NCBI RefSeq assembly: GCF_013155125.1
Contig: NZ_CP053564.1
Location: forward strand, 193,501 to 257,500
Direction: 5' to 3'
Length of the DNA stretch: 64,000 nucleotides
DNA from: Pseudonocardia broussonetiae
Lineage (GTDB): Bacteria; Actinomycetota; Actinomycetes; Mycobacteriales; Pseudonocardiaceae
In this document: piece after piece, positions 1 through 31,153 of the stretch
Layout of the letters: each line of letters begins with the position of its first letter
Numbering within the stretch: position 1 is the stretch's first letter
Notes under the pieces: model-generated
What the model saw: the letters and a program-made list of their open reading frames with translations, nothing else
What the model was told of the DNA's origin: nothing
The model's database searches: none
Translations under genes and position numbers: made by a program

Positions 1-514
1 GGTCGCGGCTGCCGGCGTAGGCCTCCCGCAGCCAGGCGGGCTCGGGCAGCTCGGGGAGCGTGCGCGGGTCGACGTCGACGGGGTGGCCGTCGAGGTCGGC
101 GTGGCGGCGGCGACCCACGGCGAGCACGTCGGGGTTGCGGGCGACGCGCGCGGTCAGGTGCTCGAGGAACCCCGGCTCGGGCACGGTGTCGGCGTCGAGG
201 AAGACCAGCACCTCGGCGCTCGTGTGCGCGACGCCGAGGTTGCGCGCGGCCGCCGCCCGGAAGCCGAGGTCGGGCTGGGTCACCACGCGCACCGGCGGGC
301 CGCCCGCGGGCGGTGCGGGCGGCGGGTCCGAGCCGTCGTCGGCGATCACCACCTCCACCGGCGGCAGGGTCTGGTGGCACAGCGCGTGCCAGGTGCGGGC
401 GAGCTGCCCGGGCTGGCGGTAGTGCGCGACGACGACCGCGACGCGCGGGCGCGGGGCCGGGTGCGCGTCGAGCAGGTTGTAGCGGTTGCCGGGGACGGGG
501 ACGTCGATCAGCAC
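1..514 (-). CDS. Glycosyltransferase family 2, C-terminus beyond window
   Basis: A GT-A fold glycosyltransferase, presumably transferring a sugar from a nucleotide donor in surface-glycan assembly. The 171 visible residues include a beta-strand with HYRQ at about residue 31, the metal/nucleotide motif ADDGS (58-62) and the DxD-type FLDAD (105-109), all typical of GT2. The GTG start at 514-512 overlaps the end of the preceding glycosyltransferase gene by 7 nt, so the two are translationally coupled. The 3' part lies outside the window, so acceptor specificity and any membrane segment cannot be judged. Confidence 0.85.
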   Translation of the reverse strand, partial: MLIDVPVPGNRYNLLDAHPAPRPRVAVVVAHYRQPGQLARTWHALCHQTLPPVEVVIADDGSDPPPAPPAGGPPVRVVTQPDLGFRAAAARNLGVAHTSAEVLVFLDADTVPEPGFLEHLTARVARNPDVLAVGRRRHADLDGHPVDVDPRTLPELPEPAWLREAYAGSRD

Positions 515-1446
515 GCGCGCAGCCCCCGGTAGAGCGCGGCGTGCGCGACGCCGGCGCCGCACGGCGGTGGGGCGGGCAGCCAGGTGCCGTCCGGGTCGGC
601 CAGGGCGGCGGTGACGTCGAGGTCGTCGTAGGGCGTCAGCGCGCCCGGGCGGCGGGCGGCCTGCTCGCGCACGTAGGCGCCGCGCGCGGCCAGCGGGCGC
701 CGGCCGCACCCCCACCAGGTGGCCAGGGTGCCGCTCGCGCTGACCGAGCGCCCCGGCACGACCGGCACGGTCACCGCGCGGGCCGCGGCGGTGAGGTCGG
801 CGTCGCTCAGGGCACCGGTGACGACGAGGTCGACGCCCGCCGCCGCCGCGCGCCTGGCCAGCGCCGCCACCAGTGCCCCGTGCCCCGGCGAGGGCCCGCC
901 CGCGGCGACCACCCGGGGCCGCGACGGGTGCCGCGCGGCGGCGTCGAGCACCTCGGCGTGCCCCTTGCCGGGGTAGAGGAAGCCGAGCACGCCGAGCGTC
1001 GGGCGGTCGGCCCAGCCGGGCGCGGCGCCGCCGGGCACGGGTGCCGGCACCGGCAGGTCGACGACGGTCGCGACCCGCCCGGAGAACGCCGCCACCTTCG
1101 CCGCCTCGTGCTCGGCGGACACGACGACGGCGTCGGCCGCGGCCACGACCCGCGCGTAGCCCGCGGTGCGGCGGGCGTCGCGGGCCGGGTCGGGATCGGC
1201 GCCGGGCACGTCGTGCAGGGTGACGACCAGCGGGCGCGGGACGCCGGCCGCCCAGGCGGTGAACGCGGCGGCGGCCGCAGCGATGTCGGCGCCCCAGAGG
1301 GCGTCGGTGAACTGGGCGTGCGTGACGTCCGCCGCTCCCCCGTCGACGCGCTCGATCCCGTGGGCGGCCGCGCGCTCGGCCACCAGCGCGGCGTGGCGCA
1401 CCACCCCGTGCCCGGCCGGGCCGGGGGCGGCGACGCGCACCTTCAC
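508..1446 (-). CDS. Glycosyltransferase, GT4/GT-B type
   Basis: A 312-residue protein with two Rossmann-like halves. It has TLHDVPG at 76-82, which in GT4 enzymes ends the acceptor half, and LGFLYPGKGH at 154-163, the usual start of the nucleotide-binding half. The GTG start at 1446 overlaps the upstream gene stop as GTGA; an upstream in-frame extension to 1542 lies wholly inside that gene and was not used. It is short for GT4 (usually 350-400 residues), and the final E-x7-E motif is weak. Donor and acceptor are unknown. It is co-transcribed with both neighbours in the minus-strand glycan operon. Confidence 0.8.
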   Translation of the reverse strand: MKVRVAAPGPAGHGVVRHAALVAERAAAHGIERVDGGAADVTHAQFTDALWGADIAAAAAAFTAWAAGVPRPLVVTLHDVPGADPDPARDARRTAGYARVVAAADAVVVSAEHEAAKVAAFSGRVATVVDLPVPAPVPGGAAPGWADRPTLGVLGFLYPGKGHAEVLDAAARHPSRPRVVAAGGPSPGHGALVAALARRAAAAGVDLVVTGALSDADLTAAARAVTVPVVPGRSVSASGTLATWWGCGRRPLAARGAYVREQAARRPGALTPYDDLDVTAALADPDGTWLPAPPPCGAGVAHAALYRGLRAC

Positions 1447-2465
1447 GCGGCCGCCCGCGCCGTCACCGACCGGTAGACCTCCGCGTGCACCGCCGCGATC
1501 CGCTCCCGCTGCACCCGCCGCGCCGCCGGGTCGGCCCGCCACGCCGGGCGCTCGGCGTGGGCCCGGCGCACGGCCGCGTGCAGCGAGGCGGCGTCAAGGC
1601 GGTGCTCGTCGTGGCCGTAGAGCAGGCACGGCGCCTGCTCGGCGTAGAAGCCGCAGTCGGGCGCCAGCACCGCCGTGCCGAGGTCGTGGCAGGCCTCCAG
1701 CCAGCCCGAGTGGGTGCCGAAGCGGTACGGGAGCACCGAGAGGTCGAGCGCGGACAGGTACTCCCACAGCTCGTCGTCGGTGAAGGGGGCGTGCACGCGC
1801 ACGTCCAGGTCGGGCAGAGCCGAGGCGACGGCGCGCCCGCGCGGGTCGTCGTGCGCGTCGATCCGCAGCCGCGCTCCGGGCAGCCCGTCGACGGCCGCGG
1901 CCAGCGCGCGGGCCACCGGCACCGGGTCGGCGTTGGCCCGCACGCTCTTGGCGTGCATCCCGACGAGGAACCCCGCGCGCGGCGGGCGGGGCGCGGCGAT
2001 CCGCTCCGGCGGGACGGCGTGCGGGTGCGGCACCACGGTCGCCTCCCGCCCCCAGCGGCGGGCGATCTCGCCCGCCGCGCCGGCGGTGAGGGTCAGCAGC
2101 GCGTCGGCCGCCGGGACCAGGACGCCGAGCGCGGCGTCGTGCGCGGCGGCATCGGTGTGGTGGGGGTTGCGCAGGTCGTGGACGGTGACGACGAGCGCCC
2201 GGCCGGCGTCGCGCAGCGCGGTGACGAGCGCGGCGAGCTGCGCGGGCGTGCGGTCGTCGTAGCCGAAGTGGACGTGCAGGACGTCGAACCCGTCGGAGTG
2301 CTCGCGCACCCACGACGGGTCGAGCATCGGCGGCGGCCACCACCGCCCGGGCGGCGCGCCGGGCACGGGCGGGTCGGGCAGGCGGAGCACGCCGTGGTCG
2401 CGGCCGTCGGGGTCGGCGAGGTGCCGGACGTAGACGTGACCGGACGGGACCGACGCGATGCGCAC
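1443..2465 (-). CDS. Glycosyltransferase, GT-B type
   Basis: A 340-residue protein, first gene of the minus-strand glycan operon. The segment HVHFGY (64-69) followed by TVHDLRNPHH (94-103) matches the acceptor side of GT4-like enzymes. The C-terminal half holds a GMHAKS segment and a DLSVLPYRFGTHSGW stretch where GT4 proteins bind the sugar nucleotide. GTG at 2465 was chosen because the longer reading frame to 2513 would leave only a few bases before the divergent gene at 2521. The intergenic region contains the 8-bp palindrome TTCGCGAA. Substrate unknown. Confidence 0.78.
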   Translation of the reverse strand: MRIASVPSGHVYVRHLADPDGRDHGVLRLPDPPVPGAPPGRWWPPPMLDPSWVREHSDGFDVLHVHFGYDDRTPAQLAALVTALRDAGRALVVTVHDLRNPHHTDAAAHDAALGVLVPAADALLTLTAGAAGEIARRWGREATVVPHPHAVPPERIAAPRPPRAGFLVGMHAKSVRANADPVPVARALAAAVDGLPGARLRIDAHDDPRGRAVASALPDLDVRVHAPFTDDELWEYLSALDLSVLPYRFGTHSGWLEACHDLGTAVLAPDCGFYAEQAPCLLYGHDEHRLDAASLHAAVRRAHAERPAWRADPAARRVQRERIAAVHAEVYRSVTARAAA

Positions 2466-2520
2466 TCGCCCCAGGTGCCCCGACGCGCCGGTTCGCGAAA
2501 CCCCGGGCAGCATCGGTCAC

Positions 2521-3432
2521 ATGGATCACGGACGCCGCCGCCACTACGGCGAGTTCTACGGCCTGGTCGACGAGCCCGGCCCGGTGACCCTGGTGCACGG
2601 CAACTGCCAGGCGGAGTCGCTGCGCGTGCTGCTCGCCGGGTCGCCGACGTTCGCGCCGCGGCCGGTGCGCGTGCCGCCGGTGCACGAGCTCACCGCCGAC
2701 GACCTGCCGCACCTGCACGCCCTGCTCGCCCGCACCGCACTGCTGCTGTCCCAGCCCGTCCGCGACGGCTACCGCGACCTGCCGCTGGGCACCGCCGAGC
2801 TGGCCGCGCGCCTGCCCGCGGGCGCGCGCGTCCTGCGCTGGCCGGTGGTGCGCTACGCGGGCCTGCACCCGTGGACGGTGATCGTCCGGCACCCCCTCGA
2901 CATGGCCGCGGTGCCGCCCGTCGTGCCCTACCACGACCTGCGCACCCTCACCGCCGCCGCAGGCCTGCCCCCCGCGCCGCGGCCCGACGCCGCGGCGCTG
3001 CGGGCCGCCGCGGCGCTGTCGGTCGCCGAGCTGGCGGCGCGCGAGGAGGCCACCGACGTCGGCGTGGCCGACCTGCTCGCCGGGTTCGGCACCGACGCCG
3101 CGCACACCCTCAACCACCCCGGCAACCCCGTGCTCATCGCGCTGGCCCGCCGCGTGCAGGCCGCGGTCGGGCTCCCGCCCGACGCCGACGACCCGGGCCG
3201 GGCGCTGCTCGGCGGGGTGCGCGCGCCGCTGGACCCCGACGTCCTCGACGCGCTGGGGCTGGACGCCGAGCCCCGCGCCCACTGGCTCGTCGACGGCGTC
3301 CCGGTCGACGACGGGCAGGTGCGGGCGGCCCAGCGGGACTGGTACTCCGCCCACCCCGAGTGGGTCGCGGCCGGGCTCGAGCGCCACGCGCCGCGACGGG
3401 AGATCCTCGCTATGACGCAGGTCACAGCGTGA
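2521..3432 (+). CDS. WcbI-like polysaccharide biosynthesis protein
   Basis: A 303-residue soluble protein carrying HGNCQAESL at residues 26-34, the signature of the WcbI family. WcbI proteins are putative CoA-binding acetyltransferases or esterases found in capsule and surface-polysaccharide clusters. The ATG at 2521 is preferred over an in-frame ATG at 2458, because the latter would run across the promoter region shared with the divergent glycosyltransferase. The gene stands just before the GT operon, which supports a role in modifying the same glycan. The catalytic activity of the family is not settled. Confidence 0.7.
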   Translation: MDHGRRRHYGEFYGLVDEPGPVTLVHGNCQAESLRVLLAGSPTFAPRPVRVPPVHELTADDLPHLHALLARTALLLSQPVRDGYRDLPLGTAELAARLPAGARVLRWPVVRYAGLHPWTVIVRHPLDMAAVPPVVPYHDLRTLTAAAGLPPAPRPDAAALRAAAALSVAELAAREEATDVGVADLLAGFGTDAAHTLNHPGNPVLIALARRVQAAVGLPPDADDPGRALLGGVRAPLDPDVLDALGLDAEPRAHWLVDGVPVDDGQVRAAQRDWYSAHPEWVAAGLERHAPRREILAMTQVTA

Positions 3433-3496
3433 TCCACGCATGGGCGCGGGTATCCGGGGTCGCCATCACCCCGCTGTCCAGAACCAGGAGCCCGCC

Positions 3497-3523
3497 GTGT
3501 CGCCGACCCGTCGTTCCCGTTGA
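3497..3523 (+). CDS. Possible 8-codon leader ORF before the GT operon
   Basis: A GTG-initiated ORF of eight codons (V-S-P-T-R-R-S-R) has an AGGAG Shine-Dalgarno sequence at 3486-3490. Its TGA overlaps the TTG start of the next gene as TTGA. The TTG itself has no clear ribosome binding site, so the short ORF could deliver ribosomes by termination-reinitiation. It is visible in sequence only; the alternative is that the glycosyltransferase start is misplaced. Confidence 0.35.
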   Translation: MSPTRRSR

Positions 3524-4584
3524 GCAGACACCGCATCGCGCTCGTCGCCTCCGCCCGCTACCCCATCCGCGAACCGTTCGCCGGCGGCCTGGAGGCCCAC
3601 ACCTGGCAGCTCGCGTCGCGGCTGCGCGCGCGGGGCCACGAGGTCACCGTGTTCGGCGGGGCCGGCTCCGACCCCGCGCTCGGCGTCCGCGAGATGGCGC
3701 CCCTCCCCCCGCTGACCGGGCACGCCCGCAGCGACGTGAGCATGCCCGCCGAGTGGTTCCTGGCCGAGCACCACGCGTACCTGGGCCTCATGCTCGAGCT
3801 GTCGTCCCCCGACGCCCCCTACGACGTCGTGCACAACAACTCGCTGCACTACCTGCCCGTCGCGATGGGCCCGGCCGTGCGGCGCCCGGTCGTGACGACG
3901 CTGCACACCCCGCCGACGCCGTGGCTGGAGTCGGCGATCCGGCTGCCCCGCAGCGGGGGCCGGCCCCGGTTCGCCGCGGTCAGCCACACCACCGCGGGCC
4001 AGTGGCGCGGCCTCGTCCCCGACGTCCGGGTGGTGCGCAACGGCGTCGACACCGCCGCGTGGACGCCCGGCCCCGGCGGCGGCACGCCCGTCTGGTCGGG
4101 GCGGATCGTGCCCGAGAAGGGGCCGGTCGAGGCGATCCGTGCGGCCCGCGCCGCCGGGAGCGGGCTGCGCCTGGCCGGGCCGCGGCCCGACCGCCGCTGG
4201 TTCGAGGCCGAGGTCGCGCCGCTGCTGGGCGACGGCATCGAGTACGTCGGGCACCTCGACCACACCGCGCTCGCCCGGCTCGTCGGCTCGGCATCGGTGG
4301 CCGTGGTGTCGCCGTGCTGGGACGAGCCGTACGGGCTCGTCGTCGCCGAGGCGCTGGCCTGCGGCACGCCGATCGCGGGGTTCGCCCGGGGCGCGCTGCC
4401 CGAGCTGCTCGACGCGACGTGCGGCGTGCTCGCCGATCCCGGTGACGTCGACGGCCTCGCCGCCGCGATCCCGGCGGCCGCGCGGCTGGACCGAGCCGCC
4501 GTGCGCCGCCGCGCGGAAGACGTGTGCTCCGTCGAGGCGATGGTGCGCGGCTACGAGGACCTCTACGACGAGCTCGTCGCGTGA
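3520..4584 (+). CDS. Glycosyltransferase family 4
   Basis: A 354-residue GT4 retaining glycosyltransferase. Key segments are GGLEAHTW (22-29, the N-terminal glycine-rich acceptor loop), RNGVD then GRIVPEKGP (start of the nucleotide-sugar half), and DEPYGLVVAEALACGTP (268-284) with the E-x7-E pair that binds the donor. It starts the overlapping plus-strand operon. The TTG start gives the correct N-terminal beta-strand (RIALVASARYP). The stop overlaps the next GTG as GTGA. It likely acts on the cytoplasmic face of the membrane on a lipid-linked or free glycan; donor unknown. Confidence 0.85.
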   Translation: MSRHRIALVASARYPIREPFAGGLEAHTWQLASRLRARGHEVTVFGGAGSDPALGVREMAPLPPLTGHARSDVSMPAEWFLAEHHAYLGLMLELSSPDAPYDVVHNNSLHYLPVAMGPAVRRPVVTTLHTPPTPWLESAIRLPRSGGRPRFAAVSHTTAGQWRGLVPDVRVVRNGVDTAAWTPGPGGGTPVWSGRIVPEKGPVEAIRAARAAGSGLRLAGPRPDRRWFEAEVAPLLGDGIEYVGHLDHTALARLVGSASVAVVSPCWDEPYGLVVAEALACGTPIAGFARGALPELLDATCGVLADPGDVDGLAAAIPAAARLDRAAVRRRAEDVCSVEAMVRGYEDLYDELVA

Positions 4585-5588
4585 TCGCCTACTACGTGCA
4601 CCACCAGGGCAGCGGGCACGTCCACCGCGCCTCCTCCATCGCCGCGCAGGCGCGGACGCCGGTCGTCGGGCTGTCCGGCCGGCCCCGGCCCGCGGGCTGG
4701 ACCGGTGACTGGGTCGACCTGCCCGACGACAGCGACGGCGTCGACGCTTCCTCGCGGGACGTCACCGCGGGCGGCACCCTGCACTGGGTGCCGCGGCGGC
4801 ACGCGGGCCTGGCCGAGCGGATGCGGCGGGTGTCGGAGACCGTCGCGCGGGCGTCGCTCGTCGTCGTCGACGTGTCGGTGGAGGTGGCGCTGCTCGCGCG
4901 GCTGCACGGCGTGCCGGTCGTCGTCGTGGCGCAGCCGGGTGAGCGCACCGACCGCCCGCACCGCACCGCCTACGACCTGGCCGAGCGCATCCTCGCGCCC
5001 TGGCCCGTGCGCCCCGCCGGCGGCTGGCCCGACGGGTGGACCGCCAAGACCGTGCACCTCGGCGCGCTGTCCCGGTTCGACGCGCACCCGGCGCCGGCCG
5101 CGGGCGACCCGTGCCGCGTGCTGGTCCTGTGGGGCCGCGGCGGCATCGACGTCGGCCCGGACCGGATCGCCGCCGCGGCGGCCGCCACCCCCGGGCACCG
5201 CTGGGTCGTGGCCGGGCCGCACCCCGGCCCCGGCGCGTGGCCGGCGAACCTGACCTGGCTCGGCTGGGTCGACGACGTGTGGGCCGAGCTGTCCGCGGCC
5301 GGCGTCGTCGTGACCCACGCCGGGCAGAACGCGCTGGCCGAGGTGGCCGCGGCCCGGCGGCCGGCCGTCGTGGTGCCGCAGCGTCGCCCGTTCGGCGAGC
5401 AGGACGCGACGGCCGCGGCGCTCGCCCGCGCCGGGATCGCCGAGCCGACCGGGAGCTGGCCCGAGCCCGCCGCCTGGCCCGCGCTGCTGGCCCGCGCGGC
5501 GCAGCGGGGCGGCACCGGCTGGGACGCCTGGTCCACCGGCACGGGAGCCGCCCGCGCGGCGGCGCTGCTCGACGGGCTGGCCGCGTGA
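4581..5588 (+). CDS. MurG-like (GT28-type) glycosyltransferase
   Basis: A 335-residue GT-B protein. It opens with a Y-x-x-HHQGSGHVHRA nucleotide-fold loop at residues 4-16 and has THAGQNALAEV near 244-254, which matches the UDP-sugar binding loop of MurG and other GT28 C-terminal domains. GTG at 4581 overlaps the upstream stop by 4 nt, and its own TGA overlaps the next GTG. MurG relatives transfer GlcNAc, so an N-acetylhexosamine donor is plausible. That would suit the downstream PIG-L deacetylase, but it is inference. Confidence 0.78.
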   Translation: MIAYYVHHQGSGHVHRASSIAAQARTPVVGLSGRPRPAGWTGDWVDLPDDSDGVDASSRDVTAGGTLHWVPRRHAGLAERMRRVSETVARASLVVVDVSVEVALLARLHGVPVVVVAQPGERTDRPHRTAYDLAERILAPWPVRPAGGWPDGWTAKTVHLGALSRFDAHPAPAAGDPCRVLVLWGRGGIDVGPDRIAAAAAATPGHRWVVAGPHPGPGAWPANLTWLGWVDDVWAELSAAGVVVTHAGQNALAEVAAARRPAVVVPQRRPFGEQDATAAALARAGIAEPTGSWPEPAAWPALLARAAQRGGTGWDAWSTGTGAARAAALLDGLAA

Positions 5589-6415
5589 CCCGCACCGCCG
5601 TGATCACGCCCGTCCGCGGGCGCGCCGCGCACCTGCACCGCCAGCGCGCCGGGCTGGCGGCCGACCCGCCGGACGTGCACGTCGTCGTGGCGATGGGGGC
5701 CGAGCCCGAGCTCGCCGACGTGCCCGGTGCACCGCCCGTCACGGTCGTCCGGGTGCCGGTGCCGGCCACCGGGCTGCCGCTCTCGGCCGCCCGCAACGCC
5801 GGCGCGGCCGCCGCCGCGGGCGCCGACCTGCTCGTGTTCCTCGACGTCGACTGCGTCCCCGCACCCGGGATGCTGCGCCGCTACGCCGACGCCGCGCGCC
5901 GCGTCGACGGGCCGGCGCTGCTGTGCGGGCCGGTGCACCACCTGCCGCCCGCCCCGCACGGCGGCTACCCGGCCGCCGACCGGCTGGCGGCGCTCGCACC
6001 CCCGCACCCCGCCCGCCCCGCCCCGTCCGACGGGGAGATCGTCGCGGAGTCGCGGTGGGAGCTGTTCTGGTCGCTGTCCTTCGCCGTCACGCCCGCCACG
6101 TGGGACGCGCTCGGCGGGTTCTGCGAGGACTACACCGGCTACGGCGGCGAGGACACCGACTTCGCCTGCGCCGCCCGCGACGCCGGTGCCGGCCTGTTCT
6201 GGGTGGGCGGCGCGAGCGCGTTCCACCAGCACCACCCGCCCGCGCGGGAGACCCCGGAGCGGATCGCGGAGATCGTCCGCAACGCCCGGCTGTTCCGCCG
6301 CCGCCGGGGGTGGTGGCCGATGACCGGCTGGCTGCACGAGCTCCACGCGCGCGGGGTCGTGGTCTTCGACCCGGCGCGCGACGCGCTGCACCTGTCTGCG
6401 GAAGGAACCCCGTGA
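5585..6415 (+). CDS. Glycosyltransferase family 2 with galactosyltransferase-like C-terminus
   Basis: A 276-residue GT-A enzyme. It has an NAGAAAAAGADLL helix-strand followed by FLDVDCVP (about 84-91, DxD metal site), then YTGYGGEDTDFACAARDAG near residue 185. That last motif is the C-terminal signature of beta-1,4-galactosyltransferase-like and chondroitin-polymerase-like GT2 domains. It lies in the overlapping operon (GTGA at both ends). No membrane segment is seen, so it is probably cytoplasmic and acts on an intermediate made by the two preceding transferases. Confidence 0.83.
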   Translation: MTRTAVITPVRGRAAHLHRQRAGLAADPPDVHVVVAMGAEPELADVPGAPPVTVVRVPVPATGLPLSAARNAGAAAAAGADLLVFLDVDCVPAPGMLRRYADAARRVDGPALLCGPVHHLPPAPHGGYPAADRLAALAPPHPARPAPSDGEIVAESRWELFWSLSFAVTPATWDALGGFCEDYTGYGGEDTDFACAARDAGAGLFWVGGASAFHQHHPPARETPERIAEIVRNARLFRRRRGWWPMTGWLHELHARGVVVFDPARDALHLSAEGTP

Positions 6416-7353
6416 CCCTGCTCGACGCCCGTCCCCCCGCCGCCGTCCCCGACCCGGGCGCGGCGCTGGGCCCCGCCCTCGCCGACGCCGTCCGCGGCGC
6501 GCTGCCCCGCCCCGGCCACGGCGACACCGCGGGCCGCTGGCGGACGCTCGCCCGCTGGGGCCGCACCGACCTCGTCCTCGCCCGCCTGGCCGAGGGCCAC
6601 GCCGACGCGCTCGCGATCCTCGCCGAGGCCGGCTGCGACCCCGTCGGGAGAGCGCTCTACGGAGTCTGGGCCGCGCGGTCGGCCGGCACCGGCGCGGTCC
6701 TGCGCGACGGCGCCCTGCACGGCGTCGTCCGCTTCTGCTCCGGCGCGCACCGGCTCGACCGCGCGCTCGTCGTCGCCGGGGACGTGCTCGTCGACGTCGA
6801 CGTGCGCGACCCGCGCGTGCGGCCCGTGAAGGGCACCTGGAACCCGGCGGGGATGGTCGCCAGCGACAGCGTCGACGTGGAGTTCCAGGGTGTGCCCGCG
6901 GACCGCCGCGTCGGCCCGCCCGCGTTCTACACCGCCCGCCCGGGGTTCTGGTTCGGCGGCGGCGGGGTCGCGGCGGTGTGGCTCGGCGGCGCCGCCGGTG
7001 CCGTCGACGACGTGCGCGGGCTCACCGGCGACGACCCGCACCGCCTCGGCCACCTCGGCGCCCTGCACACCGCCCTCGCCGTGACCGACGCCCTGCTCGA
7101 GCGCACCGCGCACGACATCGACGCCGACCCGGCCGCCGACCACACCACGGCGGTGTGGACGGCCCGCGCGGCCGCCGAGCAGCTCGTCCGCACGGTCCTG
7201 GACCGGGCGCCGCGCATCGCGGGCACCACCGGGCTGACCCGCGAGCCCGGCCCCGGCCTGCGGCTCTCCGACCTGGGCGTCTACGTCCGCCAGCACCACG
7301 CCGAGCGCGACCTGGCCGCGCTCGGCGCCCGCCTCACCGAGGAGCCCGCATGA
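6412..7353 (+). CDS. Short acyl-CoA dehydrogenase-like flavoprotein
   Basis: A 313-residue protein resembling the middle and C-terminal domains of acyl-CoA dehydrogenases. It has VVRFCSGAHRLDRALV near 103-118, equivalent to the FAD/acyl-binding middle-domain strand (usually K-x-FCSGA), followed by a helical C-terminal half ending in YVRQHHAERDL. It is 60-90 residues shorter than normal, mostly at the N-terminus, and no obvious catalytic glutamate can be placed. In this operon it could desaturate or otherwise oxidise an acyl group or a sugar-linked substrate. Start GTG 6412 and stop both overlap neighbours by 4 nt. Confidence 0.68.
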   Translation: MTLLDARPPAAVPDPGAALGPALADAVRGALPRPGHGDTAGRWRTLARWGRTDLVLARLAEGHADALAILAEAGCDPVGRALYGVWAARSAGTGAVLRDGALHGVVRFCSGAHRLDRALVVAGDVLVDVDVRDPRVRPVKGTWNPAGMVASDSVDVEFQGVPADRRVGPPAFYTARPGFWFGGGGVAAVWLGGAAGAVDDVRGLTGDDPHRLGHLGALHTALAVTDALLERTAHDIDADPAADHTTAVWTARAAAEQLVRTVLDRAPRIAGTTGLTREPGPGLRLSDLGVYVRQHHAERDLAALGARLTEEPA

Positions 7354-8642
7354 CCCGGCCGCTGACCCCGCCCGCGGACTGGCGCCCGCTGCTCACCGGG
7401 CTCGGGGCCTTCGACGTCGCCGCGCTCGCCGGGGAGCGGGTGGTCGTCGTGGCCGCGCACCCCGACGACGAGACGCTCGGCGCCGGCGGGCTGATGCGGG
7501 CGCTGCACCGGGCGGGCGCGTGCGTGGAGCTCGTGGTGGCCACCGACGGCGAGGCCGCGTTCCCCGCGCTCGACGGGACCGCCCGCGCCGCGCTCGCCGC
7601 CACCCGGCGTGACGAGCTCGACGCCGCGCTCGACGCCCACGGGATGGCCGGTGTGCCGGTGCACCGCCTCGGGATGCCCGACTCCGCCCTCGACGCCGAC
7701 GTCCTCGCCGCCGCGCTGGCGCCGCTGCTCCTGGGCGCCGAGGCCGTCCTCGCCCCGTGGAGCGGCGACCCGCACCCCGACCACGCCGCGGCCGGGCGGG
7801 CCGTCGCGGCCGCCGCCCCCGTGACCACGACCCGCTGGAACTACCCGATCTGGATGTGGCCGTGGCTGCGCGCGGACGACCCGGACGTCCCCTGGCCGTT
7901 CGCCCGCGCCCACCACCTGGACGCCGACGCGCGGGACGCCAAGCGGCGGGCCGTGGCGTGCTTCGCGTCGCAGACCGGGCCGGGACCGGACGGCGCGGCG
8001 CCGGTCGTCGGTCCGGAGGTGCTCGCGCACTTCGACACCGGCACCGAGGTCGTGTTCCGCGATCCGGTCGCGGAGGGCGCGCCGGCCGGGCGCTTCGACG
8101 ACCTCTACGCCACCGACGGCGGCGACCCCTGGGACACCCGCACGAGCTTCTACGAGCGGCGCAAGCGCGCGGTGCTGCTCGCCTGCCTGCCCCGCGAGCA
8201 CTACCGGCACGCCGCCGAGCCCGCCTGCGGGACCGGCGCGCTGACCCGGGAGCTGGCCGCGCGCTGCGACCGGCTCGACGCCTCCGACGCCGCCGCGGCG
8301 GCCGTCGACCTCGCGCGCACCGCCGTCGAGGGGACCGGTGCGACCGTGGAGCGCGCCGCCCTGCCCGACGCCGCCGCGCTGCCCGCCGGGCTCGACCTCG
8401 CCGTCGTCTCCGAGGTCCTCTACTACCTCGCCGACGACGTCCTGGCCGCCACCGTCGACCGGATCGCCGAGGCCGTGGAGCCCGGCGGCGACGTCGTGAT
8501 CGCGCACTGGCGGGGCTGGCCGGCCGAGGCCCCGCGCGACGCCGCGGCGACCCACCGGGTGCTGCTCGACGACCCCCGGTTCACGGCGCTGGTGACCCAC
8601 GTCGACGAGGAGTTCCTGCTGCACGTGCTGCGGCGCGCGTGA
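7350..8642 (+). CDS. Fused PIG-L deacetylase / SAM-dependent methyltransferase
   Basis: A 430-residue two-domain enzyme. Residues about 25-235 form a PIG-L/LmbE zinc deacetylase with AHPDDETLGAGG near 35-46 and HPDH near 140 (zinc ligands and catalytic Asp). This family removes N-acetyl groups from GlcNAc conjugates (PIG-L, MshB, BshB). Residues 245-430 form a class I methyltransferase of NodS type, with EPACGTGALTREL near 290 as the SAM loop. The fusion suggests that a freed amine is methylated directly, as NodB then NodS do in Nod-factor synthesis, but this is analogy. Start ATG overlaps the previous stop (ATGA); stop overlaps the next GTG. Confidence 0.85.
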   Translation: MTRPLTPPADWRPLLTGLGAFDVAALAGERVVVVAAHPDDETLGAGGLMRALHRAGACVELVVATDGEAAFPALDGTARAALAATRRDELDAALDAHGMAGVPVHRLGMPDSALDADVLAAALAPLLLGAEAVLAPWSGDPHPDHAAAGRAVAAAAPVTTTRWNYPIWMWPWLRADDPDVPWPFARAHHLDADARDAKRRAVACFASQTGPGPDGAAPVVGPEVLAHFDTGTEVVFRDPVAEGAPAGRFDDLYATDGGDPWDTRTSFYERRKRAVLLACLPREHYRHAAEPACGTGALTRELAARCDRLDASDAAAAAVDLARTAVEGTGATVERAALPDAAALPAGLDLAVVSEVLYYLADDVLAATVDRIAEAVEPGGDVVIAHWRGWPAEAPRDAAATHRVLLDDPRFTALVTHVDEEFLLHVLRRA

Positions 8643-9367
8643 TCACCGCGGTCGGGGTCGTCGTGCCCGCGCGCGACGAGGAGCAGCGCATCGCCGCCTG
8701 CCTGGACAGCGTGCTCGCCGCGCTGCCCCCGGGCGTCGACGCAGCCGTGGTGGCGGTGCTGGACCGCTGCACCGACGCCACGGCGTCGCGCGTGCCGCCG
8801 GGCGTCGACGTGCTGGTCAACGACGCGCCGCTCACCGTCGGCGAGCTGCGCGACCGCGGCCTGCGCCACCTGCTGGCCCGGCTCGCCGACCGCGCCGACC
8901 CGGCCACGACGTGGCTGCTCAGCACCGACGCCGACTCCATCGTCGGACCGGGCTGGGCGCACGACCACCTGCGCCACGCCGCGGCGGGGGCGCACGCCGT
9001 CGCCGGGCTCGTCGACCTCGACCCGGCGCTGGACGGTGCGCCGGACCCGGGGCCCGAGTACACCCGCATCGTCGGCTCGGGCCTGCGTCCGGACGGTCAC
9101 GGCCACGTCTACGGCGCCAACCTCGGCGTGCGCGCCGACGCCTACCTCGCGGCCGGCGGCTTCCCGGCCGTGGTCCACGGCGAGGACCACGCGCTGGTCG
9201 GGCGGCTGCGCGCCGCCGGGTTCCGCGTCGTCACCGCGCTCGACGGGCGGGTGCGGACCAGCGCGCGGACCGTCGGCCGGGCGCCCGGGGGTCTGGCCGA
9301 CCTGCTCGCCGCGCTGGAGGGCACCGGTGACCGGGGACTCCCCGGGGGCACCGTCGCCGGAGGTTGA
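8639..9367 (+). CDS. Glycosyltransferase family 2
   Basis: A 242-residue GT2 enzyme and last gene of the overlapping operon. It begins with the GT2 strand VVVPARDEEQRI, has LDRCTDAT, and a metal-binding STDADS near residue 94. The segment YGANLGVRADAYLAAGGF is the usual post-catalytic GT2 motif, and GEDHAL follows as the acceptor loop. No transmembrane helix is present. The operon therefore has four glycosyltransferases, three more lie on the minus strand, and a multi-residue glycan is the expected product. Confidence 0.84.
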   Translation: MITAVGVVVPARDEEQRIAACLDSVLAALPPGVDAAVVAVLDRCTDATASRVPPGVDVLVNDAPLTVGELRDRGLRHLLARLADRADPATTWLLSTDADSIVGPGWAHDHLRHAAAGAHAVAGLVDLDPALDGAPDPGPEYTRIVGSGLRPDGHGHVYGANLGVRADAYLAAGGFPAVVHGEDHALVGRLRAAGFRVVTALDGRVRTSARTVGRAPGGLADLLAALEGTGDRGLPGGTVAGG

Positions 9368-9395
9368 GCCCCCGGGCGTCCGGGAAACCGATCAC

Positions 9396-11228
9396 ATGTC
9401 GATCGCCCAGCCGCAGCAGCCCACCACGGGTGACGAGCCCCGCCGTCCCACCGTCGCCGACCACATCGTCGACCGGCTGGCGTCCTGGGGCGTCCGGCAC
9501 TACTACGGCTACCCCGGCGACGGCATCAACGGCATGACCGCGGCGCTGCAGCGCCGCGAGGACACCCGGTTCGTGCAGGTGCGCCACGAGGAGACCGCGG
9601 GCTTCGCCGCGTCGGCCCACGTCAAGTACGGCGGCGGGCCCATCGGGGCGGCGCTCGTGACATCGGGCCCGGGCGCGGTGCACCTGCTCAACGGCCTGTA
9701 CGACGCGAAGCTCGACCACCAGCCCGTCGTCGCGCTCGTCGGGCAGACCGGGCTGACGGCGCAGGGCGGCGGCTACTACCAGGAGGTCGACCTCCTCTCG
9801 CTCTACAAGGACGTCGCCGGGTTCCTCGCCCAGCTCGACGACCCGAGCCAGGTCCGCCACCTCGTCGACCGCGCCTGCCGCACCGCGCTCTCGGACCGCA
9901 CCGTCGCCGTGCTCGTGCTGCCCAACGACGTCCAGGACGAGAAGGCGGTCCTCGACCCGCCGCACGCGCACGGCTACTACGCCACCTCCAACGCCCCGAG
10001 CACCCGCCCGACGGTGCCCGCCGAGGACGACCTGCGCGCCGCCGCCGACGTGCTGCGCGGCGGGGAGAAGGTGGCGATGCTCGTCGGGCAGGGCGCGCTC
10101 GGCGCGGAGGCCGAGGTGGCGGCGATCGCCGCGCGGCTGGGCGCCTGCGTGGCGACGGGGCTGCTCGGGCTCGCCGCCGTCGACCAGCGCGAGCCCTGGG
10201 TCACCGGGCCGCTGGGCCTGCTCGGCACGACCCCGAGCTCCTACCTGATGCAGCACTGCGACCGGCTGCTCATCGTCGGGTCGAACACGCCCTACAGCGA
10301 GTTCTACCCGCCGGAGGGCCGCCCGGCCGTGCAGATCGACATCCAGGGCTCGCAGATGGGGCTGCGCTACCCGACGCAGGTCAACCTCACCGGAGACGCC
10401 GGGCCGACGCTGCGGGCGCTGGACGCGCTGCTCGCCGACCACGTCGCGCCGACCGCGTGGCGCGAGGACATCGCCGGGCGCACGGCGTCGTGGCGGACCG
10501 GGCAGCTCGAGGTGGCGCAGCAGGCCGCCGAGCCGGTGAACCCGCAGCTCACGCTCACCGAGCTCGACGCGCGGCTGCCCGACGACGCGATGGTCGCCGT
10601 CGACTGCGGCACCGTGACGGCCTGGTACGCCCGGCACCTGCACGTGCGCCCCGGGATGCTCGCCTCGCTGTCGGGCACGCTGCTGTCGATGGGCGGCGCG
10701 ATGCCCTACGGGATCGCCGCGAAGTTCGCCCACCCCGACCGCCCGCTGTTCGCGCTGCTCGGCGACGGCGCCATGCAGATGAACGGCGTCAACGAGCTCA
10801 TCACGGTGGCCAAGTACTGGAAGGAGTGGGCCGACCCGCGGTTCGCGGTGCTCGTGCTCAACAACCGCGACCTCGCCTTCGTGAGCTGGGAGCAGCGCAG
10901 CGCGGAGGGCACGCCGAAGTTCGACGCCAGCCAGGACGTGCCGGACGTCGACTACGCCGCGTGGGCCCGCAGCCTGGGCCTGCACGGCGTCCGCGTCGAC
11001 GACCCGTCGCAGGTCGGGCCGGCCTGGGACGCCGCGCTGGCCGCCGACCGGCCGATGGTCATCGACGCCGTCGTCGACCCCGCCGAGCTGATGATCCCGC
11101 CGCAGTTCACCCGCGACCAGGCCGTGAAGACCGCGATGTCGGTGATCCGCGGGGACTCGGACTGGCGCGGGATCCTGCGCCGCGGCATCCCCGCCGCGGC
11201 GGCCACCCTGCTGCCGCACCGGGGCTGA
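9396..11228 (+). CDS. Thiamine-pyrophosphate enzyme of pyruvate oxidase type
   Basis: A 610-residue TPP enzyme with the three domains of pyruvate oxidase/acetolactate synthase proteins. The N-terminal Pyr domain has RHEETAGFAAS near residue 62, where the Glu activates the cofactor. A central Rossmann-like domain is followed by a C-terminal PP domain with GDGAMQM near 455 and the NN of LVLNNRD about 30 residues later. It would decarboxylate pyruvate or a related 2-oxo acid, passing electrons to FAD/quinone or oxygen. ATG 9396 is preceded by the end of the glycan operon and the gene may be independent. Exact substrate uncertain. Confidence 0.78.
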   Translation: MSIAQPQQPTTGDEPRRPTVADHIVDRLASWGVRHYYGYPGDGINGMTAALQRREDTRFVQVRHEETAGFAASAHVKYGGGPIGAALVTSGPGAVHLLNGLYDAKLDHQPVVALVGQTGLTAQGGGYYQEVDLLSLYKDVAGFLAQLDDPSQVRHLVDRACRTALSDRTVAVLVLPNDVQDEKAVLDPPHAHGYYATSNAPSTRPTVPAEDDLRAAADVLRGGEKVAMLVGQGALGAEAEVAAIAARLGACVATGLLGLAAVDQREPWVTGPLGLLGTTPSSYLMQHCDRLLIVGSNTPYSEFYPPEGRPAVQIDIQGSQMGLRYPTQVNLTGDAGPTLRALDALLADHVAPTAWREDIAGRTASWRTGQLEVAQQAAEPVNPQLTLTELDARLPDDAMVAVDCGTVTAWYARHLHVRPGMLASLSGTLLSMGGAMPYGIAAKFAHPDRPLFALLGDGAMQMNGVNELITVAKYWKEWADPRFAVLVLNNRDLAFVSWEQRSAEGTPKFDASQDVPDVDYAAWARSLGLHGVRVDDPSQVGPAWDAALAADRPMVIDAVVDPAELMIPPQFTRDQAVKTAMSVIRGDSDWRGILRRGIPAAAATLLPHRG

Positions 11229-11784
11229 GGCGGCTCCGGCCCGGGCTCGCATACAGGGTGCGGGGGTGGCACACAGGGCGCGGGGGTCGCACACAGGGCC
11301 GGACCCGTGTGCGAGCACCGGAAGGTGTGTGCGAGCCGGGCGGGAGTGGCGCGGCGGGCCACTCTCCTGCGGCCGACGGGGCGGCAGCGCGTGCGTGCTG
11401 GAACGCCCGCTGAGGCGGGGGCGGGGCGGGGGCTCGCACACAGGCCGCGGGGTCGCACACAGGCCGCGGGGTCGCACACAGGCCGCGGGGTCGCACACAG
11501 GCCGCGGGGTCGCACACAGGGCCGGACCTGTGTGCGAGCACCGGGAGGTGTGTGCGAGCCGGGCGCGAGCGGCGCGGCGGGCCTCTCTCCTGCGGCCGAC
11601 GGACGTGACGGCGGGTCGTGCGTGCTCGATCGCCCTCCGAGGCGGAGGCAGGGGCTCGCACACAGGCCGCGGGGTTGGCACATAGGGCCAGACCTGTGTG
11701 CGAGCACCGGGAGGTGTGTGCGAGCGGGGCACGCGGTCATAACCGGCGGACCGCATCCGCCAGGGGGCCACTCTTGCATATCAC
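11229..11784. repeat. Gene-free stretch of repeats built from CTCGCACACAGG / CCTGTGTGCGAG
   Basis: No gene is supported here. Three related modules (about 11250-11433, 11434-11650 and 11655-11735) each carry an inverted pair of the word TCGCACACAGG around a 6-nt GCCGGA-like loop: 11287-11314 with one mismatch, 11510-11537 perfect, and 11676-11703 decayed. Each is followed by a second half-site TGTGTGCGAG. The first two modules also share the flanking words CTCTCCTGCGGCCGACGG and GAGGCGG. The array could terminate transcription from 11228, bind a protein, or be the scar of a small element. No terminal transposon repeats or target duplication were found. Confidence 0.75.
11434..11520. repeat. 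Perfect 19-bp tandem repeat, four units plus part
   Basis: TCGCACACAGGCCGCGGGG is repeated at 11434, 11453, 11472 and 11491 without mismatch. A partial fifth unit runs from 11510 to 11520 and forms the left arm of the perfect hairpin at 11510-11537. Identical units without spacers rule out a CRISPR array and suggest recent slippage expansion. Confidence 0.9.
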
Positions 11785-23943: not shown

Positions 23944-25056
23944 TTACTGCAGGGCCAGGGTGCGCACGACCTGGCGCGCGGCGGCGCCGCCCGCCTGCAG
24001 GGCGACCTCCATCGCCGCGGGAACGTCGAGGTCGTCGAGCAGGGCGGCGCGGACGGCGGCGACGTCGGCGTCGGAGCCGCCACCGGTGGCCGCGGCGCGG
24101 TAGAGGCGGTCGAGCCGGGCGGCGGCGGCGTCGAGGTCCCCGGGCCGGTACTCCCAGTCCGCGGCCCACGGGCGCTCCAGCAGCAGGAGGCGCAGGGCCG
24201 CGCCCGGGTACCGGTCGACGAGGTCGCCGACCAGCACGAGGTTGCCCGTCGACTTCGCCATCTTGGCGCCGTCGACGTGCACGGTGCCGACCGGCATCCG
24301 CCGCCGCGCGTACGGCGCCGCGCCGGTGGCCGCCGCGGCCAGGGCCACCTGGTAGGCGTGGTGCGGGAAGGCGAGGTCGGCGCCGCCGACCAGGACGTCG
24401 ACGGTGCCGCCGAGCGTGGCCAGCGCCATCGCCGCGCAGGTGGCGTGCCAGCCCGGCCGCCCCGGGCCCCACGGGCTCGGCCACGACGGGCCGTGGCCGT
24501 CGGCGGGCCACCAGACCGGCACGTCGAAGGGGTCGTCGCGGCGGGGGTCGTCGGGGTCGTCGCCGTTGGCGCGGGCCAGAGCGAGCGCGGTGTCGCGGTC
24601 GAGGCCGGCCGCAGTGGGCACCGCCGCACCGCGGAACCAGACGCCGCCCCCGCGCTCGTAGGCCGCGCCCGCGCCGAGCAGCGCGGCGGCCAGGGCCACG
24701 ACGTGGCGGACGTGGTGGCGCGCGTGCGGCTCGTGGTCGGGGCGCCGGACGTGCAGCGCCGCGAGGTCGTGCTCGACGGTGAACTCCTGCGAGAGCCCGA
24801 ACTCGTCGTAGGGCTTGCCGCGCGCGGCGGCGGCGCGCGTCAGCTCGTCGTCGACGTCGGTGACGTTGCGGGCGACGACCGTGTCGGTCCCGGTCATCCG
24901 CACGACCCGCGCCACCGTGTCGGCCCAGACGAACGTGGACGCGTGCCCGAGGTGCGTGACGTCGTACGGGGTGATGCCGCAGACGTAGAGGCGGGCGGGC
25001 ACGGTCAGTGGCACGGGCGCTCCGGCCAGCGTCAGCGTCGGGTCGGGTGCGGTCAC
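23944..25056 (-). CDS. MshC-like cysteine ligase (cysteinyl-tRNA-synthetase fold)
   Basis: A 370-residue class I synthetase-fold enzyme. CGITPYD (26-32, zinc Cys) precedes THLGHA (34-39, HIGH motif). GWHATCAAMA and FPHH supply the other zinc ligands, and KMAKS lies near 265-269. CysS is about 460 residues with an anticodon-binding tail, which is missing here; MshC is about 410. MshC joins cysteine to GlcN-inositol in mycothiol synthesis. The protein is shorter than usual, and CysS-type FPHHENE is FPHHAYQ, so it may be a divergent paralog. GTG 25056 was chosen by homology of the N-terminus. Confidence 0.78.
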   Translation of the reverse strand: MTAPDPTLTLAGAPVPLTVPARLYVCGITPYDVTHLGHASTFVWADTVARVVRMTGTDTVVARNVTDVDDELTRAAAARGKPYDEFGLSQEFTVEHDLAALHVRRPDHEPHARHHVRHVVALAAALLGAGAAYERGGGVWFRGAAVPTAAGLDRDTALALARANGDDPDDPRRDDPFDVPVWWPADGHGPSWPSPWGPGRPGWHATCAAMALATLGGTVDVLVGGADLAFPHHAYQVALAAAATGAAPYARRRMPVGTVHVDGAKMAKSTGNLVLVGDLVDRYPGAALRLLLLERPWAADWEYRPGDLDAAAARLDRLYRAAATGGGSDADVAAVRAALLDDLDVPAAMEVALQAGGAAARQVVRTLALQ

Positions 25057-25150
25057 CGCGCCATCCTCGCAAGTGCCGTTCGGCGACGCGCGGGGCCGTG
25101 TCGGCGTGCTCTCCGTAGTCGTTCCGTCACCCGATCGGTACCGTCCCTCC

Positions 25151-25486
25151 ATGCTCATCTGGGTGACGCTGGCCATCGGCACCGCCACGATCGTGATCGG
25201 CTCGCTCGCGATGACCCGCGTCGACGAGCGCTGGCGCGCCGCCCACCTGCAGTGCTGCCGCTGCCTGCGCACGTGGCACGGGCGGGAGAAGATGTGCGAG
25301 CGGTGCGGGGGGCGGGGCAACCGCTACGACTGGATGGCCGAGAAGTACGCCGGCTTCCCGACCCACGACTGGCAGGGCTACCTCGACACGGGCCCCATTC
25401 CCGTCGTGCCGGTGCAGCGGAGCCTCTCCACCTCCTTCACCGGAGCGCCCGCGGTGCCGGAGCAGCGGAGTGAGCAGCGGGTCTGA
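25151..25486 (+). CDS. Small membrane protein with zinc-ribbon motif
   Basis: A 111-residue protein. Residues 1-21 form one hydrophobic helix (LIWVTLAIGTATIVIGSLAM). It is followed by CCRCLRTWHGREKMCERCGG (about 38-57), two C-x2-C knuckles that could bind zinc. The C-terminal tail is polar. ATG 25151 places the helix at the N-terminus. It diverges from the MshC-like gene, with under 100 bp between starts, and is not linked to any pathway by homology I can recognise. Confidence 0.7.
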   Translation: MLIWVTLAIGTATIVIGSLAMTRVDERWRAAHLQCCRCLRTWHGREKMCERCGGRGNRYDWMAEKYAGFPTHDWQGYLDTGPIPVVPVQRSLSTSFTGAPAVPEQRSEQRV

Positions 25487-30900: not shown

Positions 30901-31153
30901 TGTCCCCCGCCGGCTCGGCCGCCCACACCGTCCACGCCGACCTCTCCTGCGCCGCGTCGGCCAGTGCCAGGGGTCCGAGGACGTCGGACACCGCCGCGCT
31001 GCGCCCGTCGACCGTCACCCAGTCCCGGACCAGGCGCTCGATCTCCCCCAGGGCGATGAACGTCGCGGTGGCGAGGACGGCCAGGACGAGGGTCAGGGCC
31101 TCGGACAGGTGGGGCGGGGCATCCCGGAACCCGCGGAGATCGTCGTCGACCAC
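27914..31153 (-). CDS. Large membrane protein with C-terminal patatin-like phospholipase domain
   Basis: A 1079-residue protein. Residues 1 to about 640 hold many hydrophobic helices, probably ten or more, separated by Arg-rich loops. The last 400 residues are a patatin lipase: ASGGGVRAAVW near 683 (oxyanion-hole glycine loop), SSGVSGGSVG near 716 (GxSxG nucleophile Ser) and VDGGYAEG near 903 (catalytic Asp). It would hydrolyse phospholipids or other lipid esters at the membrane. The fusion of a long polytopic region to patatin is uncommon. GTG 31153 was used. It stands alone between Rpf and the catabolic operon; several cysteines follow the active site. Confidence 0.8.
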   Translation of the reverse strand: MVDDDLRGFRDAPPHLSEALTLVLAVLATATFIALGEIERLVRDWVTVDGRSAAVSDVLGPLALADAAQERSAWTVWAAEPAGDIGITRFLVGHTAVDTVFVIASALLLLRLLCRVGAAGRTWRVLLLLLVLAEGLEAVGLLTAAFRLDPDVRGTVLLAGVSTAKWALAGALAVVVWRQAPVRERIVQGVRRAGSAVWVQRLSAVSVLLIGALSLAPVGEILDQMPDAQRAWLDQDGPAGAARAGGWHLGAAVVMVALFAVVLFFQGRWRARKAWTVEMAWTAGLGPFAPEADPLRKGRYFWWLLAPVGVATAAALVWWRSGAVAPVDGQALAVFLAVPASVVLASVVLGVRDRDRNGRSERRDALGSGLVALALLGAAWALGHGAGTDSVGWAVAVGGGVLVLVAVGIAVLMARGGKDLWSWPGRGHPTEAVERDVRLQRAGDVRVAGDLLSFGMLVVAGLGLVRSFVAPLFVPAGTPPSRYAWQLVLVAFGLLLALGAPYARLVLITWIDRDPLTTGSATSRDLRRLLRPDSGDPLVRDPRPARALATALPVAFGVLSVLVLVALVTRTEAVTARVGVVGTAVLALGSWAVLLGFFIVSLQDRQPLEVFRFLRLTANPVLSLVVAVLLLVSLSGGDPDLHEVRTTAGDAGFAGRPALREVFVAWVRDGEAACPEATVRPLVLVAASGGGVRAAVWTAGVMDALRELPCGPGVLFSSGVSGGSVGLALSRAPDALDAATRLSGPDALASGIAGALVGDVAAAVTGVRLSSGGAAEWRDRAGLMESSWEGAADVLDEPFGGDVRGPGGALILNSTAAGPGCRVLVSQIDLTAGPDLPGCQGSLDGLPAATLDLGAYERCLGRMTWATAAMLSARFPFVTPAGRVDCEVLRPDGARAPTDLQLVDGGYAEGTGIATVADLAPAVADLVREHNATVPADGAIVVPLVLYLEDETRSDVIADPPDLAPELLVPVVGGDAAGQLVRTDAWLQRSADALADPCPAVAGSRCEDAVRVVRQGVPGGVVLAAPATVPGVSSPLGWTLSDDSRRQLAEGLRFQISGCAARTAHYACLEDLLRVLGRA

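Follow-up and report, generated by a model that had tools for sequence, protein, structure and literature searches.

The operon at positions 3520 to 9367 of a 64,000-nucleotide stretch of Pseudonocardia broussonetiae DNA (that whole stretch is called the window here) unites two conserved gene modules. Module 1 is a conserved set made up of an acyl-CoA dehydrogenase (ACAD)-fold protein, a PIG-L N-deacetylase, a NodS-like methyltransferase and one glycosyltransferase of family GT2. Module 2 consists of the glycosyltransferase genes gtY-GT_A-GT_B-GT_C, with gtX and a WcbI-family gene as variable members. We propose with moderate confidence that these two cytosolic modules form a pathway under stress control, to which the ACAD-fold protein contributes an oxidation and which makes an N-methylated amino-sugar glycoconjugate. 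The system is conserved and apparently undescribed; an earlier note on this DNA knew of no pathway with this set of genes, and we found none described in the open-licence literature. By analogy, it would work like the NodB/NodS type of amino-sugar editing, with a PIG-L enzyme as the deacetylase, joined to a multi-glycosyltransferase assembly line and an unorthodox ACAD-fold flavoenzyme.

The earlier note had described six genes joined by 4-bp overlaps, encoding four glycosyltransferases, an ACAD-like protein and a PIG-L/methyltransferase fusion, and both layout and content held up. The overlap is present at all five junctions, four times as GTGA and once as ATGA. Pfam searches recovered the expected families, with an intact PIG-L/NodS-like fusion, and the GC content at third codon positions is 0.95-0.98 in six of six open reading frames (ORFs). 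The genes are as follows.

3520..4584, + strand: GT_A, GT4-family glycosyltransferase, module 2 (PF13439, 65.9 bits; PF00534)
4581..5588, + strand: GT_B, GT28/MurG-like glycosyltransferase, the marker of module 2 (PF04101)
5585..6415, + strand: GT_C, GT2-family glycosyltransferase, module 2 (PF00535, 24.2 bits with a cut-off of 23.3; PF02709 just below its cut-off)
6412..7353, + strand: ACAD-fold flavoprotein of a distinct clade, module 1 (two Pfam matches below cut-off)
7350..8642, + strand: fused PIG-L N-deacetylase and NodS-like S-adenosylmethionine-dependent methyltransferase, module 1 (PF02585, 78.9 bits with a cut-off of 28.2; PF05401, 41.5 bits with a cut-off of 24)
8639..9367, + strand: GT_D, GT2-family glycosyltransferase, module 1 (PF13641/PF00535)

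Module 1 was followed through the best 80 of 498 confirmed loci found with an alignment of the fusion (the named loci). In 77 of the 80, a gene for an ACAD-fold protein of this clade stands no more than 3 kb from the PIG-L/methyltransferase, and in 77 as well a GT2 gene stands no more than 3.5 kb away, so that the fusion, the ACAD-fold gene and a glycosyltransferase stay together across genomes. The loci lacking the former are L077, where the ACAD side is cut off, L090, which meets a contig end, and L110, with PIG-L alone; those lacking the latter are L090, L103 and L110. Module 1 is present in many Micrococcales, in Pseudomonas and in Bacteroidota. The named loci belong to Actinomycetota, Pseudomonadota and Bacteroidota, and the set also occurs on a Deinococcus plasmid, which brings the spread to four phyla; plasmid records are few (7). 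PIG-L and methyltransferase are fused in 67 and split in 11 of the named loci, as read from our own ORF calls, in which a draft-genome frameshift could mimic a split; the Kitasatospora and Deinococcus plasmids carry annotations of separate genes. A 79-row tree requires 5 changes between the fused and the split state, and well-supported branches force at least 4 of these; such repeated switching usually points to enzymes that act in succession on one substrate. The association was also counted in a class sample of 296 genomes searched for the ACAD clade, GT_B and PIG-L/methyltransferase pieces (the latter accepted down to about E 3e-20). The ACAD clade is present in 53 of these genomes, and 50 of them have a piece of PIG-L or methyltransferase no farther than 1.5 kb from it, which excludes a grouping by chance; among the other three, one has the ACAD gene at a contig edge and two have weak partial matches.

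The PIG-L zinc and catalytic motifs AHPDDE and HPDH are intact, with H37, D39, D40, H142, D144 and H145 invariant in 18 rows, and T96, D97, A98, D99 and E182 of GT_D are invariant in 12 rows. The closest solved PIG-L relatives are TT1542, diacetylchitobiose deacetylases and MshB. Among solved structures, the profile of the fusion matches 4isc_A with 217 bits over its whole length, NodS 3ofj with 93, diacetylchitobiose deacetylase with 68 and MshB with 58. 4isc_A belongs to the same family as our methyltransferase, is labelled only 'Methyltransferase' and has, to our knowledge, no assigned function. The methyltransferase domain falls into the NodS family (PF05401) but reaches 49.5 of the 300 bits set by the NCBIfam equivalog for NodS. 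Together, the intact zinc motif, the NodS-type domain and the repeated fusion lend support to the idea, already put forward in the earlier note, that an acetyl group is removed and the freed amine then methylated. The same order holds in Nod-factor synthesis, where deacetylation precedes N-methylation according to PMC5080398. The parallel with NodB/NodS extends to this sequence of amino-sugar N-deacetylation and N-methylation. The system described here differs in using PIG-L instead of a NodB-type deacetylase, in fusing both activities, in its other glycosyltransferases and additional ACAD-fold enzyme, in its four-phylum spread, and in lacking NodC and NodA among the cluster genes, by which we mean the ten genes in 508-11228.

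The ACAD-fold protein itself falls below the Pfam cut-offs (PF00441, 20.3 of 22.4 bits; PF22471, 19.3 of 27 and probably spurious). Its AlphaFold2 model has a pLDDT (model confidence) of 95, and both Foldseek and the VIA structural aligner support an ACAD fold. The closest named relatives among the matches listed are Pseudonocardia proteins with 78-81% identity. Conserved residues of the protein include R58, E61, H63, S110, W143, Y173 and Q294. At the position of the usual ACAD catalytic residue (EGT, residue 295), glutamate is present in 1 of 59 family rows and histidine in 39. Residue 175, on a helix, which we take to be the alternative catalytic-glutamate position of ACADs, is glutamate in 13 of the 59. 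For comparison, the catalytic residue of medium-chain acyl-CoA dehydrogenase is Glu376 and those of DszC are Ser163 and His391. A wider profile of the family (A3) places DszC first among PDB entries (72.8 bits), together with type-2 enzymes, and Foldseek also ranks DszC first; the A2 profile has ColB1, a dehydrogenase of carrier-bound substrates, as its best match. The protein shares with the group D flavin monooxygenases (DszC, TdsC, MsuC, KijD3) the fold and the loss of the ACAD glutamate, and the serine of its FCSG motif aligns with residue 163 of DszC by our own count on the alignment. It differs from these enzymes in length (313 residues against 417 in the DszC chain), in having the histidine at residue 295 in only 39 rows, and in the lack of a reductase among the operon genes. 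The oxidation of an acyl group, which the earlier note had offered as a perhaps, is therefore doubtful, because the catalytic glutamate is missing in 58 of the 59 rows and both the profile and Foldseek favour group D monooxygenases; this judgement is tempered by the structural aligner and by same-genome paralogues, both considered below. With the ACAD-fold query, 4116 of 8000 scored candidates matched at E 0.001, some of which may be ordinary ACADs.

Upstream of the operon lie the remaining members of module 2 and a further glycosyltransferase, so that the WcbI-like gene and three flanking glycosyltransferases seen earlier are confirmed.

2521..3432, + strand: WcbI-family putative acyltransferase (PF18588, 226.6 bits with a cut-off of 29.2)
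1443..2513, - strand: gtY, GT4-like glycosyltransferase, a recurrent module-2 gene (PF13439 below cut-off)
508..1446, - strand: gtX, GT4-like glycosyltransferase, a variable module-2 partner (PF13579 below cut-off)
1..514, - strand: third flanking GT2 gene, which starts at about 514 and extends out of the window (L197:14822-16015; PF00535, 75.1 bits)

GT_B was found in 40 of the 296 class genomes. All 30 short loci examined around GT_B contain GT_C; GT_A is found in 29 (missing in L130) and gtY in 27 (missing in L116, L117 and L134, which are short stretches), and gtX or WcbI is present sometimes; gtY elsewhere often stands directly before GT_A. A phylum sample, also of 296 genomes and searched with the GT_B profile, yielded 15 genomes, of which nine are outside the class and four of these nine are partial matches. 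The best solved relative of the GT_B family profile is a MurG (41.8 bits), a GlcNAc (N-acetylglucosamine) transferase; this kinship would fit a UDP-GlcNAc donor. WcbI has a single solved relative at E 0.01, the capsule protein 4bqn, and the resemblance is weak at the level of the structure (30.8 bits) although the Pfam family is well over its cut-off. WcbI genes also occur near module 2 or module 1 in L015, L117, L130, L153, L154, L163, L208, L211, L215 and L216.

The two modules are linked across genomes without usually being joined. In the class, the ACAD clade is present in 23 of 39 genomes with GT_B, the weak GT_B genome G259 being left out (odds ratio 10.9, P 3e-10, with kinship among the genomes ignored here and in the genus count), and GT_B lies within 7 kb of the ACAD gene in 5 of the 23; in the other 18 the distance is at least 20 kb or the genes are on different contigs. 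A genus sample of 60 genomes contains GT_B in 20, the ACAD clade in 34 and both in 19 (P 1e-5), so that G598 is the sole genome with GT_B and without the ACAD clade. The distance between them in these 19 genomes is below 2 kb in six and 8-18 kb in seven; in the remaining six, they are farther apart or on different contigs. Ten genus regions were fetched, three with joined operons like that of the window and seven with the modules apart. GT_A, GT_B and GT_C stand beside module 1 in Nostocoides (L079), a Microbacteriaceae bacterium (L081), Mucilaginibacter (L088) and Pedobacter (L103). We considered the six-gene operon as a conserved unit and rejected this, given that the modules are usually apart in the class. 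Since they are joined in few genomes and separate in most, the operon represents a lineage-specific joining of two linked modules.

Two elements precede GT_A.

3427..3453, + strand: SigB/SigF-type promoter-like site GCGTG-N16-GGGTAT with GGGTAT at 3448-3453, recognised by pattern and conservation
3497..3523, + strand: short leader ORF of 8 codons, with AGGAG upstream and a good ribosome-binding site; its stop codon shares the sequence TTGA with the TTG start codon of GT_A

Four relatives (L215, L216, L217 and L235) retain both GCGTG and GGGTA, with a varying spacer; the last base is changed in L215 and L217, which places both outside the search pattern. The leader-ORF arrangement is present in 5 of 5 genomes examined, the window and four relatives, with a length of 6-9 codons. 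A SigB/SigF-type stress regulon is marked by a GTTT-like -35 and a GGGTA(C/T) -10 element before its genes. Promoters of comparable form are listed for the SigB homologue of S. coelicolor in PMC8346170. We searched upstream of module 2 with a strict and a relaxed pattern (G..T-N-GGGTA[CT]), using shuffles, the antisense strand and neighbouring genes as controls. The relaxed site precedes the first module-2 gene in 11 of 31 loci of a discovery set, which contains several loci from one genus, and in 8 of 23 loci of a check set fetched later, with shuffle means of 0.47 and 0.37 and antisense counts of 3 and 3. The strict pattern was found in 6 of 31 and 2 of 23 (antisense 1 and 1), and in 8 of 54 overall compared with 6 of 107 neighbouring genes, a borderline difference (P 0.05). 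The check set comprised 23 of 25 loci, leaving out L234, which has no GT_A match, and L228, with 127 bases and the motif present. The discovery and check sets are not fully independent, because L035 and L210 appear to be the same genome. The motif is thus enriched before module 2, less so when neighbouring genes are the reference, and because these carry the site too, the whole neighbourhood may be stress-controlled.

Genes around the modules were also compared. A sigma-factor gene family (sigma-70 regions 2, 3 and 4 in the one member scanned by Pfam) is present in 5 of 10 genus loci. Of 20 class module-2 loci, 6 contain catalase (four of these from one family), compared with only 3 of the 84 loci examined around module 1. 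LigD is encoded in one genus locus and also beside module 1 in a Pseudomonas; LigD, GlgE, trehalose-type and PA2169-like queries each matched 1-2 loci, the source locus included. Spore photoproduct lyase is encoded upstream of the window and also near module 1 on a Kitasatospora plasmid (L112), where the module-1 genes sit amid ferritin-like, PRC-barrel and polyphosphate-kinase genes. On a Cupriavidus plasmid (L115) they are surrounded by catalase, PA2169-family and GlgE-type genes. Both neighbourhoods have a stress-gene flavour.

We envisage the pathway as follows. GT_A, GT_B and GT_C would build an oligosaccharide on an acceptor together with three enzymes encoded on the opposite strand (gtY, gtX and the third GT2), and WcbI may acylate that oligosaccharide. 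Module 1 would add and edit a single amino sugar: GT_D would transfer an N-acetylhexosamine, probably GlcNAc, the PIG-L domain would remove the acetyl group, and the fused NodS-like domain would methylate the freed amine. The ACAD-fold flavoenzyme would act next, not as an acyl-CoA dehydrogenase but by oxidising the product on or close to this nitrogen or at another site of the sugar. The pathway would belong to a SigB/SigF-type stress programme, in which case a glycoconjugate that stays with the cell and protects it is the probable product. As for the oxidation, PMC5481743 describes group D members that N-hydroxylate and KijD3 as an N-oxygenase in sugar biosynthesis. A more specific version, speculative and in our judgement improbable, is that the terminal amino sugar of a stress-induced glycoconjugate is deacetylated, N-methylated and then N-oxidised to an N-hydroxy-N-methyl group or a nitrone, the ACAD-fold proteins being a new clade of sugar N-oxygenases.

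Several observations weigh against the proposed pathway. Strong PIG-L or methyltransferase pieces occur without the ACAD clade in 15 of 66 class genomes, mostly as PIG-L alone, and the statistics for co-occurrence of the modules take no account of kinship. Module 1 is often found without module 2, and therefore the two products may differ. The relaxed promoter motif is also present on the antisense strand (6 of 54, compared with 19 of 54 on the sense strand) and upstream of neighbouring genes (11 of 107). Before module 1 in named actinobacterial loci, the strict pattern was found in 1 of 66 and the relaxed one in 3 of 66, against control means of 0.1 and 1.0, so that there is no clear enrichment; of 15 further loci, 14 have an ACAD match, and four site matches lie at least 487 bases before the ACAD start. 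With respect to the oxidation, the VIA aligner ties dehydrogenases and flavin monooxygenases, and none of the ten cluster genes encodes a flavin reductase, the rest of the genome not having been searched. Finally, eight paralogues from the same genome that match the ACAD profile were compared; four have glutamate at the usual catalytic position and the others have D, G, D and P, from which it follows that the catalytic glutamate is not universal in the wider superfamily. None of the eight has glutamate at the alternative position.

These last points bear on the possibility of a genuine dehydrogenase: the ACAD-fold protein could act on acyl-CoA or acyl chains and introduce a double bond into the lipid part of a glycolipid. 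The partial PF00441 match, the isovaleryl-CoA dehydrogenases that the VIA aligner puts level with monooxygenases, the ColB1 match and the four paralogues without the usual glutamate all agree with it. We nevertheless consider it improbable, in view of the rarity of glutamate at either position, the preference of the A3 profile for DszC and type-2 enzymes, and the content of the cluster, none of whose genes encodes an acyl carrier or a lipid function. Still less likely is a secreted signal of the Nod-factor-like lipochitooligosaccharide type, although a NodS-type domain follows a deacetylase here and a genus that is apparently Frankia carries ACAD-MT-GT2 (MT, methyltransferase; L191 and L196). 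Neither a NodC chitin synthase nor a NodA-like acyltransferase is encoded among the ten cluster genes, the remaining genome not being part of this search; the NodS equivalog cut-off was missed, and in the Frankia-like genomes the PIG-L gene lies elsewhere. The core of the module is also found in many genera that are not known to us as nodulating symbionts, and the module occurs in many Micrococcales, in Pseudomonas and in Bacteroidota. A Nod-type version of the signalling glycolipid entertained in the earlier note is thus not supported, and the operon is not a Nod-factor locus. In one Frankia-like genome, G038 (L190 and L191), ACAD-MT-GT2 stand together; the same contig also carries the orthologous PIG-L gene, but at a distance of hundreds of kilobases or more. 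PMC11093716 deals with a NodS-like methyltransferase of Parafrankia for which upstream Nod proteins were not detected, and which we do not connect with module 1.

Somewhat more credible, if still unlikely, are two further explanations. A pathway for a polysaccharide antigen of the surface or capsule, decorated by the amino-sugar editing, would account for seven glycosyltransferases and a WcbI homologue whose solved relative is a capsule protein, and on the Deinococcus plasmid module 1 adjoins a glycosyltransferase and a UDP-galactopyranose mutase gene. Yet none of the ten cluster genes has a Pfam match to an exporter, flippase, polymerase or lipid-initiating transferase, and the ten upstream genes that were scanned include none for export, polymerisation or initiating transfer either. 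The cluster proteins contain no evident membrane segment (maximum 19-residue hydropathy, 1.93), and no second glycosyltransferase is as broadly conserved as GT_D around module 1 in the named loci; by these tests the operon is not a complete capsule locus. The other explanation, similarly doubtful, is that module 1 makes a small glycoside, a mycothiol-like protectant or specialised metabolite, by glycosyl transfer, PIG-L deacetylation, N-methylation and oxidation. Glycosyl transfer followed by PIG-L deacetylation is the logic of MshA/MshB and BshA/BshB, the zinc motif is intact, the MshB and BshB profiles match weakly, and a single glycosyltransferase of GT_D type recurs beside module 1 in most named loci. 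The scores are far below the equivalog cut-offs, however, methylation follows, and the operon contains no cysteine ligase. No cysteine ligase or acceptor-making gene recurs with module 1 in the neighbourhoods of the named loci, and GT_D is a GT2 enzyme, unlike MshA, which is a GT4. The presence of four to seven glycosyltransferases together in the operon suggests an oligosaccharide and so speaks against a small glycoside. We retain the two-module pathway for an N-methylated amino-sugar glycoconjugate as our preferred interpretation.

Other features of the region were noted. A gene for a thiamine pyrophosphate-dependent enzyme follows the operon at 9396-11228, as in two other joined operons (L215 and L217), and the intergenic stretch after it, 11228-11720, contains many CGCACACAGGCCGCGGGG-like repeat units. 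Outside the window, some 11-13 kb before its start, a further GT2 gene and an amine-oxidase-like gene are neighbours on the - strand (L197:1578-4177). A class I (C) tRNA-synthetase-like gene at 23947-25320 (PF01406, 223 bits) is possibly the mycothiol cysteine ligase MshC. The 1079-amino-acid open frame at 27917-31153 on the - strand has no Pfam match at 0.001 and may be a wrong-strand frame.

Overall, module 1 is a compact cassette found in four phyla, with a recurrent fusion of its two central enzymes and no product described for it in the open-licence literature searched. In it, a deacetylase and an amine methyltransferase are coupled in a setting other than symbiosis signalling. Its flavoenzyme clade carries the label 'acyl-CoA dehydrogenase' in the source databases yet lacks the usual catalytic glutamate, so that many annotations may be misleading. 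The stress-type promoter makes the conditions of induction testable and, if the N-oxidised reading were true, the product would represent a chemically new class of protective bacterial glycan spread over four phyla.

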